A DNA stretch of 45,118 nt from Chlorobiaceae bacterium (GTDB taxonomy: Bacteria; Bacteroidota; Chlorobiia; Chlorobiales; Chlorobiaceae): positions 6,673 through 51,790 of the forward strand of contig JAAXWL010000005.1 of assembly GCA_013334975.1 (NCBI GenBank), in the 5' to 3' direction. The stretch's first letter is position 1; the number at the start of each line of letters is the position of its first letter. The notes under the pieces were generated by a model. It worked only from the letters and a program-made list of their open reading frames with translations. It searched no databases and was not told where the DNA came from. The translations under genes were made by a program, and so were the position numbers. Below, one piece after another: positions 12,099-22,903 of the stretch.

Positions 12099-15000
12099 TC
12101 AGAAAATCATGTCACTTTTCAAAAGAGTGCTGACACCGGTCAACTGAATGGTAAACTCCGCAGTCAGGAGATTGTTGTCCGTGTTGCCGTACAACATACC
12201 TGTCGCACCGTCAAACCGCAATTGGCCTGCTGCGGTAAACGGATTCGTCGCCGATATGATCGTGCTGTCGAAAACCTGATTTCCGTTTATCCGGGCGTTC
12301 GCATCAATGGCCGACAAATCGAGTCTGTCCTGACCTGACACAAAATCGGTAATAATGTCATGACTTGTGGCAACCACTCCGCTCTCCGTCGTCGCCAGAT
12401 AATCAAAGACGAACAGATCATTTCCATCTCCTCCGGTCATCACATCGGCTCCGGTACCACCGTTGATTGTATCGTTTCCACCGACACCCAGAATCGTGTC
12501 ATTCCCGGTTGCACCGCTCAGTACATTGGCCCCATCGTTTCCGTTGATGACGTTGTCGAGCACATTGCCCTTGCCGTTGATTGCGCCACTTCCAGTGAGT
12601 GTCAGGTTCTCGACATTGGCTACCAGAGTGAAGGTGATGCTGGCCTCTACTGAGTCCGTGCCTTTTCCTGCTGTTTCCTTCACCACGTCGCCCGGGTTGT
12701 CCACCACGTACATATCATTGCCAGCGCCCCCCTCCATTCTGTCCGCATCGGTTCCACCATCCAGCAGATCGTTGCCTCCATTGCCCATCAGCGTGTCGTT
12801 GCCCGCTTCTCCATACATCTGGTCATCTCCTGCAGCACCATTCTGCTGGTCATTACCAGTCGAGCCAACCATGGATGCCAACACGTCAACCTTCACCTGC
12901 ACCGGCGTTGCTGACTCTATACCTGCGTTATCTTTCGCCACCGTCGTAAAGGCATCGAGGAGGCCATACGTGTCAAGCGACGGTGTCCAGAAGGCCTGAT
13001 GCAAGGCATCGACGGTGTTGTTGGTCGTCGTATTAAACGACGTCGCACTTGCCGCATCGGCGCCGATCAGAAGGGTGCCACTCGTCACACTCTCAATCAC
13101 CATGGCATCAACCGTGCCATCGGCGTCAGCCTCATCACCCTTGGCAAGCAGTTCGGCCAGTGAAATGGCCTCCTGCTTGTTGCGCGTGGTCTGATCGACC
13201 GGATCACTGAAGCTAGTCAGTGTTGGCGCGTCGTTGCTGCCGGAAATGGTTATGGCAATGGTTTGATCGGCGTAGGCTCCGAACTCGTCTGTTACTCTGG
13301 CAGTGTAACTCTGCAAGACGGATTCGCCAGCCTTGAGTGCCTGTGTTACGGTGTCGTTGTTATCGAGCGTATAGTCCCAGACTCCGCTGGTGGCATCGAT
13401 GGTAATGCCGCCACATGCGTTTTCCGGAGTTGAGCCGACGATGCTCCATGTTTTCGTTGCACCGGCATCGACATCACTCGCCGTCAGGGTTCCTGTTGCT
13501 GAAGCCGAACCGGCAACTCCGAATCCGGATTCGGTTACTGAACCTTGCCTCGCTTCGACTGAGTTGGTTACAACAGGCGTATCGTTTTTACCATTGATCG
13601 TTATGGTGGCTGTCGTGGTCGGATAACCACTGATGGCAGTCGAGGTGTTTTTCAGTACCGATACCGTATTGCTGTAATAGTTGGCAACAATGATGTCTGA
13701 TTTACCATCGCCGGTCACATCTGCGCTGATCACTGAATTTGGAAGTAACCCTGTCGCAAAGTCAACCCTGGCGGCAAAGGTACCATCTCCTTTGTTTCTC
13801 AGCACCGATACTGTATTACTGCCATTGTTTGCGACAATCAGATCAGACTTGCCATCGCCATTGACATCTGCGCTGATTACTGAATCCGGAAACGAACCCG
13901 TCGAATAGTCTACTTTGGCGGCAAAGATACCATCTCCTTTGTTTCTCAGCACCGATACGGTATTGCTGTTACGATTAGCGACAATCAGATCTGCCTTGCC
14001 ATCACCATTCACATATGCGCTGGTCACTGAAGCTGGAAACGAACCCGTCGAATAGTCTACTTTTGCGGCAAAGGTACCATCTCCATTATTGCTCAGTACC
14101 GATACTGTATTGCTCCATTTGTTTGCAACAATCAGATCTGCCTTGCCATCGCCATTGACATCTGCGCTGGTCACTGAATCCGGAAACGAACCCGTCGAAT
14201 AGTCTGCTTTTGCGGCAAAGGTGCCATCTCCACTATTTCTCAGCACCGATACCGTATTGCTCCAATTGTTTGCAACAATCAGATCAGCCTTGCCATCGCC
14301 ATTGACATCTGCGCTGGTTACTGAATCTGGAAACGAACCCGTCGAATAGTCTACTTTTGCGGCAAAGGTACCATCTCCATTATTGCTCAGCACTGATACC
14401 GTATTGCTCCAATTGTTTGCAACAATCAGATCAGACTTACCATCGCCATTGACATCTGCGCTGGTCACTGAAGCTGGAAACGAACCCGTCGAATAGTCTA
14501 CTTTTGCGGCAAAGGTACCATCTCCATTATTGCTCAGTACCGATACTGTATTGCTCCAATTGTTTGCAACAATCAGATCAGACTTACCATCGCCATTGAT
14601 ATCTGCGCTGGTCACTGAATCCGGAAACGAACCCGTCGAATAGTCTGCTTTTGCGGCAAACGAGATTGTTCCACTTGCGGCACGGTCAAGCACCTGGTAG
14701 GTGGCGACGAGGATTTTCGATTGGCCGGGCGCCAGCGAATTAAATACCGTGTTGGCGGGATCGACGGTAAGGGTTTTGCCATTCAGCGTAAATCCCGTCG
14801 GCAAAATCGATGACACGCCATTGACGGTGTAGCTGACAGGGCCAAGATAGAGTTTGTCTCCAGCATCAGGGTCATTGGCATTGGCAAACAGGTTCAGGCT
14901 TGCTGACGAAGCACCTTCCGCTACCTTTTTCACAAGCGGAGCGGATACGGTGGGAATGGTGTTTGCAAGCAGATTGTCATAGGCCGGAACATCGATCGTC

Positions 15001-15467
15001 ATCGATTGCCCGACCGGTCCGCTCTGCACCTCCAGCACCCAGTCACCGCCCGCTGAGGCGCCGCCGGTAGCATCATCCGAAGCTGCGACATCGGCTCCGG
15101 TCAGTCGCGAAAGTGTTTGGATAAACTGCTGTCCCGCCTCTCCGGCAGCGACATTGCAACCATAGAGCAGCAGGTCTCCCGATTCAGTCAGGGCATTACC
15201 GATAAGCGCAAGTTCGCCTGCGTATCGATCGAGGAGGGTACTGTTCAGCTCGCTCGAACCCAGGGTAATCGAACCGGATGATCCGTGTGAAATGATCTGG
15301 ATGGAATCATAGTCGCTTTGGCCTGAGAGAGCAGCGACGATCTGGCCGATACCATCAAGGTTTTCATCGAGCACCAGATACTCGGTTCCGGGAGCTGATT
15401 GTGCAATCAGAAATGCCGTGTCATTGACACGACTATCGATAAATACCCGGGATTTTGCCATAATCAT
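12099..15467 (-). CDS. Giant secreted RTX/FG-GAP repeat protein with DUF4347
   Basis: A 1122-residue protein, probably a type I secretion substrate and adhesin-like. Domains in order: an N-terminal DUF4347 domain (about 5-160; LYGCNVAAGEAGQQFIQ); a linker; seven near-identical 49-residue FG-GAP/VCBS repeats (DYSTGSFPDSVTSADVNGDG type, about 270-615) with calcium-binding DVNGDGKADL loops; VCBS/cadherin-like domains (about 625-850); then glycine-rich RTX nonapeptide calcium repeats (GNDTLMGNGGNDLLDGG) and a C-terminal RTX-like secretion region. No N-terminal signal peptide is seen, consistent with a C-terminal type I signal. No ABC exporter or membrane-fusion protein is nearby. The FG-GAP repeats are highly alike at the DNA level, so assembly errors in copy number are possible. 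Confidence 0.88.
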   Translation of the reverse strand: MIMAKSRVFIDSRVNDTAFLIAQSAPGTEYLVLDENLDGIGQIVAALSGQSDYDSIQIISHGSSGSITLGSSELNSTLLDRYAGELALIGNALTESGDLLLYGCNVAAGEAGQQFIQTLSRLTGADVAASDDATGGASAGGDWVLEVQSGPVGQSMTIDVPAYDNLLANTIPTVSAPLVKKVAEGASSASLNLFANANDPDAGDKLYLGPVSYTVNGVSSILPTGFTLNGKTLTVDPANTVFNSLAPGQSKILVATYQVLDRAASGTISFAAKADYSTGSFPDSVTSADINGDGKSDLIVANNWSNTVSVLSNNGDGTFAAKVDYSTGSFPASVTSADVNGDGKSDLIVANNWSNTVSVLSNNGDGTFAAKVDYSTGSFPDSVTSADVNGDGKADLIVANNWSNTVSVLRNSGDGTFAAKADYSTGSFPDSVTSADVNGDGKADLIVANKWSNTVSVLSNNGDGTFAAKVDYSTGSFPASVTSAYVNGDGKADLIVANRNSNTVSVLRNKGDGIFAAKVDYSTGSFPDSVISADVNGDGKSDLIVANNGSNTVSVLRNKGDGTFAARVDFATGLLPNSVISADVTGDGKSDIIVANYYSNTVSVLKNTSTAISGYPTTTATITINGKNDTPVVTNSVEARQGSVTESGFGVAGSASATGTLTASDVDAGATKTWSIVGSTPENACGGITIDATSGVWDYTLDNNDTVTQALKAGESVLQSYTARVTDEFGAYADQTIAITISGSNDAPTLTSFSDPVDQTTRNKQEAISLAELLAKGDEADADGTVDAMVIESVTSGTLLIGADAASATSFNTTTNNTVDALHQAFWTPSLDTYGLLDAFTTVAKDNAGIESATPVQVKVDVLASMVGSTGNDQQNGAAGDDQMYGEAGNDTLMGNGGNDLLDGGTDADRMEGGAGNDMYVVDNPGDVVKETAGKGTDSVEASITFTLVANVENLTLTGSGAINGKGNVLDNVINGNDGANVLSGATGNDTILGVGGNDTINGGTGADVMTGGDGNDLFVFDYLATTESGVVATSHDIITDFVSGQDRLDLSAIDANARINGNQVFDSTIISATNPFTAAGQLRFDGATGMLYGNTDNNLLTAEFTIQLTGVSTLLKSDMIF
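13690..14660 (-). repeat. 147-bp in-frame tandem repeats (FG-GAP units)
   Basis: Seven tandem units of 147 bases (49 codons) are visible inside the large secreted protein. The marker CGAATAGTC recurs exactly 147 bases apart (13902, 14049). The central units differ by only a few bases each, while the unit at the protein C-terminal side (forward 13690-13780) is the most diverged. Such arrays expand and contract by recombination. Confidence 0.85.
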
Positions 15468-17921: not shown

Positions 17922-18115
17922 CGTGTTATCTTTCCTATCATCCCATCAATAAAATCCAGCATTTCCCGACCGCTTCCCCAATAATCCCCACCCAGCCCAT
18001 CTCCCCCTTCCCCCGTACCGTGTTTACGGTATTTGTATGGTATATAGCATCCCTTCAGCTCTCTTTAGTGTTTTATTAGGCTTACTGATCGTGCCTGCTG
18101 GCGCGATTCAATCAG

Positions 18116-18191
18116 GGCGACGTGGGTGAGCGGTTGAAACCAGGGTCTGCAAAACCTTCCACAGGCGCAAGTTCGAATCTTGCCGTCGCCG
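18116..18191 (+). tRNA. tRNA-Cys(GCA)-like gene in sulfite-reductase operon leader
   Basis: A cloverleaf folds by eye. The 7-bp acceptor stem is 116-122/184-190 (GGCGACG/CGTCGCC), the D arm is GGT/ACC with loop containing A14, G18 and G19, and the anticodon stem is 142-146/154-158 with loop CTGCAAA. The anticodon GCA (Cys) is at 18149-18151, and the T stem is GCAAG/CTTGC with loop TTCGAAT. U8, U33, T54-T55-C56, A58 and C61 are all present. It departs from normal tRNA-Cys in several ways: base 26 appears absent, the variable region has 8 bases, the D stem has 3 pairs, the discriminator is G (CysRS normally needs U73) and no CCA is encoded. It ends 46 bases before the sulfite reductase start, on the same strand. 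It may be a decayed tRNA, a specialised tRNA or a regulatory RNA. Confidence 0.7.
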
Positions 18192-18236
18192 CGATTCTGA
18201 AAACATGCAACAATGAACCGAAACGAGAGTAATGCT

Positions 18237-19151
18237 ATGACTGTAAAAGAAAATAATGTGAAACAGCCGGTTTCTGACCGGATCGGGATGATGAAGCAGA
18301 CGCAGCCTGACTTGTACGTCATGCGTCTCAAGGCGCTTGCCGGTGATCTCTCCTCCCTTCAGCTTGCCGCGATAGCCGAGGTTGCCGAGCGGTACGGACA
18401 AGGGGTGGTTCACCTCTCTGTGCGTCAGGGGGTTGAAATCCACCATGTGCACAAGGATGATCTCGAAGAGGCGCGTCTGGCGCTTGGCGAAGCGGGTGTT
18501 GAAATGGGCGCTTGTGGGCCGCGTGTGCGGGGCATCGTGGCCTGTCCCGGATCGGAGAGCTGCAAGTGGGGAGTGATCGACACCAAGCAGCTTGCCCGTG
18601 AACTCGACGAACGCCATTTCAAGCGGGAAACACCATCGAAGTTCAAGATCGCCGTTACGGGGTGCGCCCATAACTGCACGAAGGCCAACGAGAATGACAT
18701 CGGTATTCGCGGGGCGATAGAGCCGCGCTGGCAGTCCGAAGCATGTACCGATTGCGGCCATTGCCTCTCCTTCTGCCCGGTTGGCGTCATCGAGCGCCGG
18801 GTGGACGAGCAGCATGAGGCTGGATTCCGTTACGAGCTGGACGAGGCGCGTTGTATCAATTGCAGCGTCTGCACCTCGCTTTGCCCGACGGGCTCATGGG
18901 TTGCCGGAAAGCAAGGTTATACGGTGCTGATCGGGGGCACGATGGGCAAGATTCCCCGTTTCGCCTCGGAGCTGAAGCGCTTTGCCGAAACGGAAGCCGA
19001 GGCGCTGGCCCTTGTTGAGAGCGCGATTGCCTTTTACTGCGAGCATGGACGGAAAAAAGAGCGCTTCGGTCACATGATCGACCGGATCGGACTCGACGAG
19101 GTGAAGGAGGAGATTCTTGAAGCCGCATTGCAACGCGTCGAAAAGGAGTGA
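18237..19151 (+). CDS. Assimilatory siroheme sulfite reductase with ferredoxin domain
   Basis: This protein reduces sulfite to sulfide in the cytoplasm. Its 304 residues carry a ferredoxin-like N-terminal half-domain (20-85) and the siroheme/[4Fe-4S] ligand set C103-x5-C109 and C143-x3-C147 (CPGSESC, CAHNC). An inserted 2x[4Fe-4S] ferredoxin module follows, with cysteines 170/173/176/180 and 206/209/212/216. This is the compact type related to clostridial AsrC and Dsr-like assimilatory enzymes, not the larger CysI. ATG 18237 is chosen because GAGAG lies 7 bases upstream; an in-frame ATG at 18213 lacks such a site. It is first in the operon with cysH and cysD and directly follows the tRNA-Cys-like gene. 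The electron donor is probably ferredoxin. Confidence 0.88.
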   Translation: MTVKENNVKQPVSDRIGMMKQTQPDLYVMRLKALAGDLSSLQLAAIAEVAERYGQGVVHLSVRQGVEIHHVHKDDLEEARLALGEAGVEMGACGPRVRGIVACPGSESCKWGVIDTKQLARELDERHFKRETPSKFKIAVTGCAHNCTKANENDIGIRGAIEPRWQSEACTDCGHCLSFCPVGVIERRVDEQHEAGFRYELDEARCINCSVCTSLCPTGSWVAGKQGYTVLIGGTMGKIPRFASELKRFAETEAEALALVESAIAFYCEHGRKKERFGHMIDRIGLDEVKEEILEAALQRVEKE

Positions 19152-19227: not shown

Positions 19228-19950
19228 ATGAGCATAGAAACCGCAAGCACCCTGAATGCAGCCTGGAGCGGGGCATCACCCGCAGAGGCGATCAGCCTCG
19301 CGCTTGACTATTTCGGCGAAGAGAAAATCACATTTTCAACCAGTCTCGGCGCGGAAGACCAGGTCATTACCGACATTCTCTGGCGTCAGAACCTCAGGGT
19401 GCCTGTCTTCACCCTCGATACGGGAAGGCTTCCCGAAGAGACCTATCGTCTGCTCGATGAGACGAGGCTGCGCTATGGAATCAAGGTCGAGGTGATTTTT
19501 CCGGAAGCTGAATCGGTGCAGAAGATGCAGACTGCGCACGGACCGAACCTCTTTTACAATAGCATCGAAAACAGGCGGGAGTGCTGCCGCATACGCAAGG
19601 TGGAACCCCTTTCCCGAAAGCTTTCGTCTTTCTCGGCATGGATTTGCGGACTGCGCCGGAGCCAGTCGGTCACCCGGAATCAGCTCGATCTGGTTCAATG
19701 GGATGAAGCCTTTGGTCTCTACAAGATCAATCCGCTGGTCGATGCGACCGAAGCGTGGGTATGGGAGTATATCAGGAGTCACAACGTTCCCTACAACGCC
19801 TTGCATGATAAGGGCTATCCGAGCATTGGTTGCGCCCCCTGCACGAGAGCGATAGAGCCGGGCGAGGATATCCGGGCCGGTCGCTGGTGGTGGGAACAGC
19901 CTGAACTCAAGGAGTGCGGATTGCATGGCGCTCACGCTCATCAACGGTAA
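19228..19950 (+). CDS. cysH: Adenylylsulfate (APS) reductase CysH
   Basis: Reduces activated sulfate to sulfite with thioredoxin-type electrons. The 240-residue protein has the PP-loop-like [11 protein letters not shown] segment at 36-46 and the [10 protein letters not shown] block. The cysteine pairs C119-C120 and C202/C205 ligate a [4Fe-4S] cluster, and the catalytic cysteine is C230 in ECGLH. The two cysteine pairs indicate the APS-using type, not the cluster-free PAPS type. This agrees with the decayed APS-kinase domain on CysN downstream. It lies 76 bases after the sulfite reductase gene and its end abuts the cysD start. No thioredoxin gene is nearby. Confidence 0.93.
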
Positions 19951-19960
19951 AGCTTTGTCT

Positions 19961-20839
19961 ATGAACCATCTCGACAAACTCGAAGCGCAGAGCGTTTACA
20001 TCCTGAGGGAGGCGTACCGTGAGTTTAAAAGCCTTTGCATGTTGTGGTCAATCGGCAAGGACAGCACGGTGCTCCTGTGGCTCGCCCGAAAAGCATTTTT
20101 CGGTCATGTGCCGATTCCGCTCGTGCACATCGACACGCACTACAAGATTCCTGAGATGATCGACTATCGCGACCGGATAGCGCTTGAATGGAATCTGAAC
20201 ATGATTTACGGGGAGAACCGGGCGGCGCTCGATGCGCGCCAAACATTTCCCGACGGCAATACCGACCGGATCGTCTGCTGCCGCCACCTGAAAAGCGAGG
20301 CTCTGAAGCGCACGCTTTCGGGTGAGTGGCCGCGCTACCGGATGAACCATGAGCTGAAGCGCTATGAGGTTGACGAAAAGCGCGACCCGTTCACGGGTGT
20401 CATTGTCGGCGTTCGTGCCGACGAGGAGGGGAGCCGGTCGAAGGAACGCTACTTCTCGCCGCGAGACAGCTCGAACTCGTGGGATGTCGGCGACCAGCCG
20501 CCCGAGTTCTGGAATCAGTTCAAGACCGATTTCGCTCCGGGTACGCACGTCAGGATTCATCCGCTGCTCGACTGGACAGAGTTGAACATCTGGGAGTACA
20601 TTGAGCGGGAGAATATCCCGATCGTTTCGCTCTATTTCAACCAGGGCAGAGGCACCAGGTATCGCTCTCTCGGGTGTGGCCCCTGTACCAATCCGATCGA
20701 TTCGCCGTCACGCACCATACGCGAGATCATCGAAGAACTCGAAAGCGGCCAGCTCTCCAATGTCGCCGAACGCTCCGGCAGGGCGCAGGACAAAGAAGAC
20801 GGCGGCCTTGAGACGCTCCGCCGCGACGGCTACATGTGA
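19961..20839 (+). CDS. cysD: Sulfate adenylyltransferase subunit 2 (CysD)
   Basis: CysD is the catalytic ATP-pyrophosphatase subunit that makes APS from ATP and sulfate, driven by the GTPase CysN. The 292-residue protein starts [20 protein letters not shown] as is usual for CysD. It has the PP-loop [15 protein letters not shown] and the conserved [21 protein letters not shown] segment near residues 155-176. The ATG at 19961, 10 bases after the cysH stop, is chosen over an in-frame ATG 36 bases earlier, because that one overlaps cysH and adds residues foreign to the family. The gene is separated from cysN by a 240-base gap containing a palindromic repeat. Confidence 0.94.
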
Positions 20840-21079: not shown

Positions 21080-22903
21080 ATGAGTACGGAACCCATAGAA
21101 AAGTCAGCATCACGATCGCGGATGAACATCGTTATCGTCGGCCACGTCGATCATGGCAAAAGCACGGTGATCGGGCGTCTGCTCGCCGATACCGGTTCGT
21201 TGCCCGAAGGTAAGCTCGAATCGGTCAAGGAGAGTTGCCGGCGCAACTCGCGACCTTTTGAATACGCCTTTCTGCTCGATGCGCTCAAGGATGAGCAGGC
21301 ACAGGGCATCACCATTGATACGGCCCGCTGTTTTTTCAAGACGGCGTCGAGGGACTATATCATCATTGATGCTCCGGGACACATCGAGTTTCTGAAAAAC
21401 ATGATCAGCGGTGCGTCGCGAGCCGAAGCGGCGCTGCTGGTGATCGACGCTCATGAAGGCATCCGGGAAAACTCAAAGCGGCACGGCCACATGGTTGCGA
21501 TGCTTGGCGTGCGGCAGGTGACCGTGCTGGTCAACAAGATGGATCTCGCCGGTTACAGCGAGGAGACCTTCGAGAGCCTGAAAGCGGGATACACTGATTA
21601 CCTCCGGCAGATCGACGTCGAACCGGTCAGCTTTATTCCCGTCAGCGCCCGTGAAGGCGACAATATCGCGGAGCGTTCTGCGTTGATGCCGTGGTATGAC
21701 GGTCCGACCGTGCTCGGCCAGCTCGATCTCTTTTCGAGCGGACGGGAGCTGCATGAAAAACCGTTCCGCCTGCCCGTGCAGGATGTCTACAAGTTCACCA
21801 ACTCCGGCGATGACCGCAGGATTGTGGCCGGAACCATCGAGGCAGGTCAGGTGCGGAAGGGCGAGGAGGTGCTCTTTCTGCCCTCCGGCAAGCGGTCGCA
21901 CATCGATTCGGTCGAGTCCTTCAATACTCCCCGCAAGGAGTGGGTGGCGGCGGGCGAGGCGACTGGCTTCACCCTTTCGACGCAGATTTACATCCGGCCC
22001 GGCGAAATCATGGTGCGCCCCGGCGATCTCCTGCCCGAGGTTGGCACCCGGTTCAGGGCGAACATCTTCTGGGTGGGGCGCGTGCCGATGTCGAGGGAGA
22101 AGGAGTACAAGCTGAAACTCGGTACGGCCCGCACAACGGTCAGGCTGGCAGGAATCGTCAGCACCCTCGATGCTGCCGAGTTGAATCTCAGCCGAGGCAA
22201 ACAGCAGCTCGATTGCCGCGACGTGGGGGAGTGCATTCTTGAAACGACGCGCCCCATTGCCTTTGATCTCGCCTCCCGGAACGAAACCACAGGCCGGTTC
22301 GTCATTGTCGATAACTACGAAATCGCCGGTGGCGGCATCGTGCTCGAAAACCTCTCTGGCGGAGAAACCCTTCTGGAGCGCCATATCAGGGAGCGCGAGA
22401 GCCATTGGGAGACCGGCTCCCTGCCGGCTGCCGAACGGGAGCGCCGTAACCGGCACCGTTCCAAGTTCATCGTCATCACCGGCCCTCCGGGCACAGGAAA
22501 GCGTGCGCTCTCAAGGGAGCTTGAAACCATGCTCTTCAGAAACGGGTGCAGCACCTACTACCTCGGTCTGGCCGCCATCGAGCACGGACTCGATGCCGAC
22601 CTGCGTTTGAACGAGAAAAATGTCGAAGAGCGCCTCCGCCGCCTCGGAGAGCTTGCCCGTATCATGACCGATGCCGGCATGATCTTCATCACCGCGATCG
22701 ACGACGCCGACGACTACGACATCGGGATGCTCAAGTTGCTCAACGACCCGAACGAAATACTCGTTGTCACCGTCGGACGCAACGACTTCGAGCACACACG
22801 GCCCGATCTGCAACTCGAAGAGATCTCGGACATCGCCGAAGCACTCGAAGTCATCGCCGACACGCTCACCTCAAGGGAGATCATCGAAGATTTCCAGATA
22901 TGA
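21080..22903 (+). CDS. cysN: Sulfate adenylyltransferase subunit 1 with degenerate APS-kinase domain
   Basis: A 607-residue fusion. Residues 15-445 are a CysN GTPase: P-loop GHVDHGKS 21-28, DAPGH 98-101, NKMD 152-155 and EF-Tu-like beta-barrel domains. It drives APS synthesis by CysD. Residues 460-607 correspond to APS kinase (CysC) but lack its working parts. The P-loop reads GPPGTGKR with arginine where serine or threonine should follow lysine, the DGDNxR motif has become GLAAIEHGL, and the FISP segment is AIDDAD. The domain is therefore unlikely to make PAPS, which an APS-type CysH would not need. It may be structural or sense nucleotides. It is the last gene of the plus-strand sulfur operon. 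Confidence 0.9.

Follow-up and report, generated by a model that had tools for sequence, protein, structure and literature searches.

What is a gene resembling a cysteine tRNA doing in the leader of a sulfite reductase operon? The question is raised by a stretch of 45,118 nucleotides (nt) from a Chlorobiaceae bacterium (contig JAAXWL010000005.1, here called the window), in which a tRNA-Cys(GCA)-like gene ends 45 nt before the start codon (position 18237) of a small siroheme sulfite reductase (SiR) gene. Related tRNAs were found in many Chlorobiaceae and fall into two types: type A, to which the window tRNA belongs, and type B. Judged from their sequences and neighborhoods, we consider it fairly probable that these genes represent a lineage-specific second tRNA(GCA) of Chlorobiaceae, which is part of a sulfate-assimilation (sulfur-starvation) regulon and acts in trans.

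The tRNA gene and its relatives

ARAGORN called a single tRNA in the window, a tRNA-Cys(GCA) at 18116-18192 on the + strand, and positions 18116-18191 matched the Rfam tRNA family (RF00005) with 49.2 bits and an E value of 1.2e-7 (gathering cut-off, 29).

18116-18191, + strand: type A tRNA-Cys(GCA)-like gene, positions 1-73, with a G73 discriminator (ARAGORN; RF00005; 24 distinct type A sequences in relatives)
18149-18151, + strand: GCA anticodon, starting at position 34 of the gene (ARAGORN; the same in 23/24 distinct type A sequences)
18192, + strand: C74, which is encoded, while C75 and A76 are not (C74 is encoded in 69/69 type A/B copies and in 42/42 distinct tRNAs of the genome)

The original prediction, made without database searches, of a tRNA-Cys(GCA)-like gene in the leader of a sulfite reductase operon was thus confirmed. 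The structural details that it listed are all present in the sequence: a 7-bp acceptor stem (GGCGACG/CGTCGCC), U8, A14, G18-G19, U33, the GCA anticodon, a TTCGAAT T loop, G73, a D stem of 3 bp, and a variable region of 8 nt (10 nt under the reading with a 4-bp anticodon stem). Two of its statements stood in part. The tRNA was said to lack base 26; it is indeed one nucleotide short, but it can equally be read as having a 4-bp anticodon stem. The missing CCA is true of the gene but normal in this genome, where only 11 of 42 distinct tRNAs encode CCA, and we therefore rejected it as an oddity. A GCGATTC direct repeat (18103-18109 and 18191-18197), taken as a possible mark of insertion, does exist; relatives do not keep it, however, and we regard it as a chance repeat.

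The gene is not the sole housekeeping tRNA-Cys, a case that the original prediction had named as its refutation, since a normal tRNA-Cys with U73 is encoded on another contig of the genome (L033, G000:C68; the genome comprises 2.79 Mb and is 99.7% complete). A third tRNA-Cys(GCA) of this genome (L040, at L083:3688-3761) has A73, an encoded CCA, and mismatches in the acceptor and T stems, and looks like a decayed copy.

Relatives were sought by BLAST of 99 genomes of the phylum, by an IUPAC scan of GTDB contigs, and in 86 Chlorobiaceae genomes; most of the genomes examined were metagenome-assembled. The searches of the 86 genomes used the T arm and the 3′ acceptor and left the anticodon free, so that they can show anticodon conservation, whereas the GTDB scan required a GCA loop and provides no evidence on this point. 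Type A or B was carried by 57 of the 86 Chlorobiaceae genomes, and the pattern was observed in 0 of 308 sampled genomes of the phylum outside this family. Type B is present in a species available in culture, Chlorobium ferrooxidans DSM 13031. The GTDB scan returned 60 loci/contigs, all of them Chlorobiota and nearly all labeled as Chlorobiaceae or its genera. No report of such a tRNA turned up in a literature search, most subscription journals being outside its reach.

Type A was found in 29 genomes with 24 distinct sequences. All 24 have G73 and are one nucleotide short between the D and anticodon stems, so that a 5-bp anticodon stem and base 26 do not occur together. The variable region is hypervariable (5 to 9 nt), with C48 nearly always at its end, and the anticodon loop CTGCAAA was recovered in 23/24 by the anticodon-free searches. 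Type B (39 genomes, 19 distinct sequences) displays normal architecture, with base 26, a 5-bp anticodon stem, a 5-nt variable region, and U73 in 18/19 sequences. A small intermediate group (L097, L109, and L122) combines the type A acceptor stem with U73.

Base pairs were counted on a position-wise parse; a MAFFT alignment with normal tRNA-Cys misplaced the type A gap column. The acceptor, D, and T stems hardly vary across type A and B sequences, and the types differ by two-sided changes at 6:67 (C-G/U-A), 7:66 (G-C/A-U), and 49:65 (G-C/A-U). All other variation falls in loops, in the variable region, or, among type A sequences, in the pairs 27:43 and 28:42. Among the encoded 3′ ends, C74 is kept and positions 75 and 76 drift, which is the pattern predicted for a tRNA-processing substrate and the same rule that the other tRNAs of the genome follow. 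Decay was rejected for most lineages, given acceptor, D, and T arms that are near invariant across 24 distinct sequences; real decay is confined to genomes G108 and G145 and perhaps G120.

Several loci depart from this scheme. A single type B tRNA (L102 and L176, genome G156), located beside cysK/cysE, has G73 for U73, so that the discriminator of type A has arisen there independently. Tandem type B tRNAs with a period of 191 to 195 nt occur at L117, L119, L124, L130, L139, L141, L143, and L146. In six of these eight, the anticodon loop of the upstream copy is 8 to 9 nt long and contains no GCA (CTCTAAAA, for which ARAGORN gives CTA; CTCAAAAA; CTGAAAAAA; and TTCACAAA), and in some tandem copies the acceptor pair 7:66 is altered on both sides. 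The SiR leader of L239 (genome G108) contains a type A tRNA that is mostly deleted, with the outer acceptor halves retained, a natural case of loss.

Sulfur genes and a shared operator

Behind the window tRNA, the genes of sulfate assimilation follow on the same strand.

18225-18229, + strand: Shine-Dalgarno (SD)-like GAGAG before the SiR start codon (read in the sequence; L092, L121, and L132 conserve AGAGAGC before the corresponding start codon)
18237-19151, + strand: small SiR with a ferredoxin domain (Pfam NIR_SIR, 4.5e-34; NIR_SIR_ferr, 2.2e-17)
19228-19950, + strand: cysH, APS/PAPS reductase (NCBIfam TIGR02055 above cut-off, 257 bits)
19925-20839, + strand: cysD, sulfate adenylyltransferase small subunit (NCBIfam NF003587 above cut-off, 342.7 bits)
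21080-22903, + strand: cysNC, sulfate adenylyltransferase large subunit with an APS kinase domain (TIGR02034 above cut-off; APS_kinase domain)

Type A has sulfur genes as neighbors in other genomes too. Of the 29 copies found, 12 precede SiR at a distance of 45 to 102 nt, 15 stand between DUF4395 and metY, and the remaining 2 (genomes G052 and G101) are solitary, next to a divergently oriented metB-cysK cluster. The usual upstream neighbor of type B is a porin gene, some 105 nt behind which the tRNA begins; SiR follows within 1 kb in 18 of 50 matches. This association with sulfur genes, which the original prediction had noticed at a single locus, proved to be systematic when other genomes were searched: type A or B was present in 46 of 51 SiR-positive genomes compared to 11 of 35 SiR-negative ones (Fisher, 1.8e-8, not corrected for phylogeny). 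Its argument for selection rather than decay was likewise borne out, because the stems are conserved with compensated changes, the sulfur link is systematic, and a separate normal tRNA-Cys exists.

A 27-bp palindrome lies 73 nt before the window tRNA.

18016-18042, + strand: operator/promoter-like palindrome TACCGTGTTTACGGTATTTGTATGGTA of the sulfate-assimilation regulon (matched once in the window; expected matches from 100 shuffles, none)

Six genomes were searched for this site and showed one to three each. These sites precede SiR (with the tRNA in between at type A and intermediate loci), porin, and a sulfate-binding-protein-like gene, the last of which was recognized by sequence features and not by family search. 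The window's own genome has a further site before DUF4395-metY. Variants of the site were seen in type B loci, where they separate the tRNA from SiR, and in metY operons, where they precede cysK. Because the site recurs at SiR, porin, sulfate-binding-protein, and metY genes, it is predicted to mark a sulfate-assimilation regulon, and the window tRNA is a member of this group of genes.

mRNA leader or trans-acting tRNA

A tRNA-like sequence shortly before a start codon could also act in cis. In the thrS operator of E. coli, a tRNA-like RNA in the mRNA leader, a partial mimic at the ribosome-binding site, is bound by ThrRS. By analogy, a tRNA-like domain of the SiR mRNA would bind free cysteinyl-tRNA synthetase (CysRS). 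With plentiful cysteine, free CysRS would block translation or alter mRNA stability; with uncharged tRNA-Cys accumulating, CysRS would leave, and G73 would prevent charging of the decoy. The position of type A 45 to 102 nt upstream of SiR in 12 loci and its retention of GCA with loss of U73 fit such a leader. Nevertheless, we consider it unlikely. Genomes G052 and G101 lack SiR yet keep both operator and tRNA, terminator-like hairpins separate the tRNA from SiR in type B loci, and upstream tandem type B copies have no GCA. The window leader itself displays no outstanding terminator or SD-masking fold, and a leader attenuator was rejected, as the sole terminator-like match is the operator palindrome. 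Searches against Rfam revealed no known cis-regulatory RNA (T-box or riboswitch) in the window leader, where the tRNA was the only match, and no known regulatory RNA family at type B or metY loci. Compared to the thrS operator, which it resembles as a tRNA-like leader RNA, the Chlorobiaceae tRNA is complete, lies farther upstream, and persists without the downstream gene.

This persistence was observed directly in the two SiR-less species. Their tRNAs agree in 77 of 77 positions, even in the hypervariable region, compared to 89% identity over the 100 bases upstream and no relationship in the downstream DNA. Right behind the tRNA, G052 has a terminator-like hairpin that is GC-rich and carries a T run. 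If the tRNA drifted like its flank, the probability of 0 changes in 77 positions would be about 1e-4 (0.89 to the 77th power), for one species pair. Together with the type B copies that follow a porin gene and a terminator-like hairpin, many of them without SiR, this conservation favors a trans-acting product over a cis leader, in a manner that is supportive rather than conclusive. Among the three roles originally suggested, a leader sensing CysRS or the charging level is thus not favored, and a specialized tRNA fits best.

The sequences show the structure of the tRNA, its conservation, its place in the regulon, its restriction to the family, and its persistence without SiR; its transcription, processing, charging state, and physiological effect we infer as follows. 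An operator-controlled promoter at about 18016-18042 would fire when sulfate must be assimilated, and the tRNA would be transcribed as the 5′ part of a SiR-cysH-cysD-cysNC transcript. Ordinary tRNA-processing enzymes would excise it, and CA would then be added. The mRNA would be left with a short leader, and expression of the sulfur operon would raise the tRNA pool along with it.

Several observations weigh against this explanation. Thermodynamic folding of the unmodified window sequence did not favor the cloverleaf. Pair 27:43 is unpaired in 7 and pair 28:42 in 5 of the 24 type A sequences, and damaged copies exist in G120 (altered anticodon loop), G145 (anticodon arm deleted), and G108 (mostly deleted); these defects show that some lineages can do without the RNA. 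Five SiR-positive genomes carry neither type. Finally, a weight matrix search detected no operator-like site upstream of the metY-linked type A copies, so that control by the operator is seen for only part of the tRNA family.

The type B tRNAs are flanked by two conserved hairpins with T runs; at L101, for example, one separates porin from the tRNA and the other follows the tRNA. The first (T1; about 90 nt) contains an invariant GTGTGTGCATC and 5 pairs with two-sided changes; the second (T2) has a fold z of -5.0. Neither region matched Rfam, and T1/T2 constitute a candidate new RNA element of Chlorobiaceae.

Charging and possible functions

The bacterial CysRS determinants are U73, G2-C71, C3-G70, and GCA (PMC9976931). 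Type B carries all of them and is probably a working conditional tRNA-Cys of normal properties. In type A, GCA is present (23/24) but U73 is not; both G2-C71 and C3-G70 occur in the window tRNA and in 23/24 type A sequences. As U73 is a major CysRS determinant and the anticodon stem is weakened in addition, type A should be a poor CysRS substrate. Under the trans-acting explanation, type A most likely serves as a conditional tRNA whose charging is low or altered and which would read or compete for cysteine codons under sulfur scarcity.

The tRNAs might instead be ordinary extra tRNA-Cys copies that share a transcript with sulfur genes by history and serve plain decoding. The normal architecture of type B and its full set of listed determinants (PMC9976931) agree with this. 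We judge it rather unlikely, however, because the tRNAs recur at different loci of a single regulon and every distinct type A sequence has G73. Uncharged type A could also be a trans-acting decoy: by sequestering CysRS or occupying the ribosomal A site, it would slow the use of cysteine in sulfur scarcity. Titration of CysRS, the third role originally suggested, stays conceivable because type A keeps GCA without U73; G73 should cripple cysteinylation while the anticodon stays, and control within the sulfur regulon would suit a decoy. Nonetheless, type B retains U73 in the same family and regulon, and high tRNA levels would be needed, making this very unlikely.

A different amino acid might also be attached. 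The bacterial tRNA-Ser identity set comprises G73, C72, G2-C71, R4-Y69, G30-C40, a large variable region, and C11-G24 (PMC9976931), and type A, including the window tRNA, has the first five. The 5′ half of type A, including the D arm, resembles tRNA-Ser(GCU) of other Bacteroidota. Type A lacks the large variable region (5 to 9 nt instead) and C11-G24 (its pair 11:24 is G-C), and serylation without the long arm is possible but unlikely. Type A as an adaptive mistranslator, a sulfur-starvation tRNA pairing a cysteine anticodon with another amino acid, is a highly doubtful reading; serine would be the candidate because of G73, most tRNA-Ser acceptor determinants, and the tRNA-Ser(GCU)-like D arm. 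If it were true, cysteine codons would partly be read as serine under sulfur scarcity.

The non-proteinogenic tRNA-Gly of S. aureus, which serves cell-wall synthesis, is likewise a duplicate of a normal isoacceptor given to a side task. Unlike it, the Chlorobiaceae tRNAs keep G18-G19, and no tRNA-dependent ligase was seen next to them. The selC* tRNA-Cys and allo-tRNAs described by Mukai, Soll, and coworkers (reviewed in PMC7609411) are also non-canonical, lineage-limited, operon-linked extra tRNAs, some with GCA and Cys identity. However, selC* has an 8/4 architecture (8-bp acceptor and 4-bp T stem with a bulge), a long variable arm, and U73, whereas type A has a 7-bp acceptor stem, a 5-bp T stem, G73, and a variable region of 5 to 9 nt and resides in sulfate-assimilation operons; with this wrong tRNA architecture, a selC* system is not supported. 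SepRS/SepCysS operons also contain a tRNA-Cys gene adjoining cysteine/sulfur metabolism genes, but those tRNAs serve RNA-dependent cysteine synthesis (PMC5424206, PMC8762117). The neighbors in Chlorobiaceae are SiR, cysHDN, and metY, and the window's genome has one full-length CysRS match (a second match fell under the family cut-off). A SepRS-type system is thus not supported, although SepRS itself was not searched for.

If the trans-acting explanation holds, the supply of one tRNA would be coupled to the very nutrient regulon responsible for producing its amino acid, across a bacterial family, and one branch of this regulon-coupled tRNA would have lost a major synthetase determinant. The family would offer a concrete system for asking whether bacteria adjust the decoding of cysteine codons when sulfur runs short.

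Two minor observations concern neighboring genes. The SiR genes of G123, G145, and G157 (L203 and L204) contain one TGA inside the matched stretch, and their open frames end near the end of the match; this is probably a shifted stop codon. Elsewhere in the window, positions 12099-15467 on the - strand encode a protein of 1,122 amino acids with many near-identical repeats of about 37 amino acids (SADVNGDGKSDLIVANN...); it resembles a large, repeat-containing surface protein.
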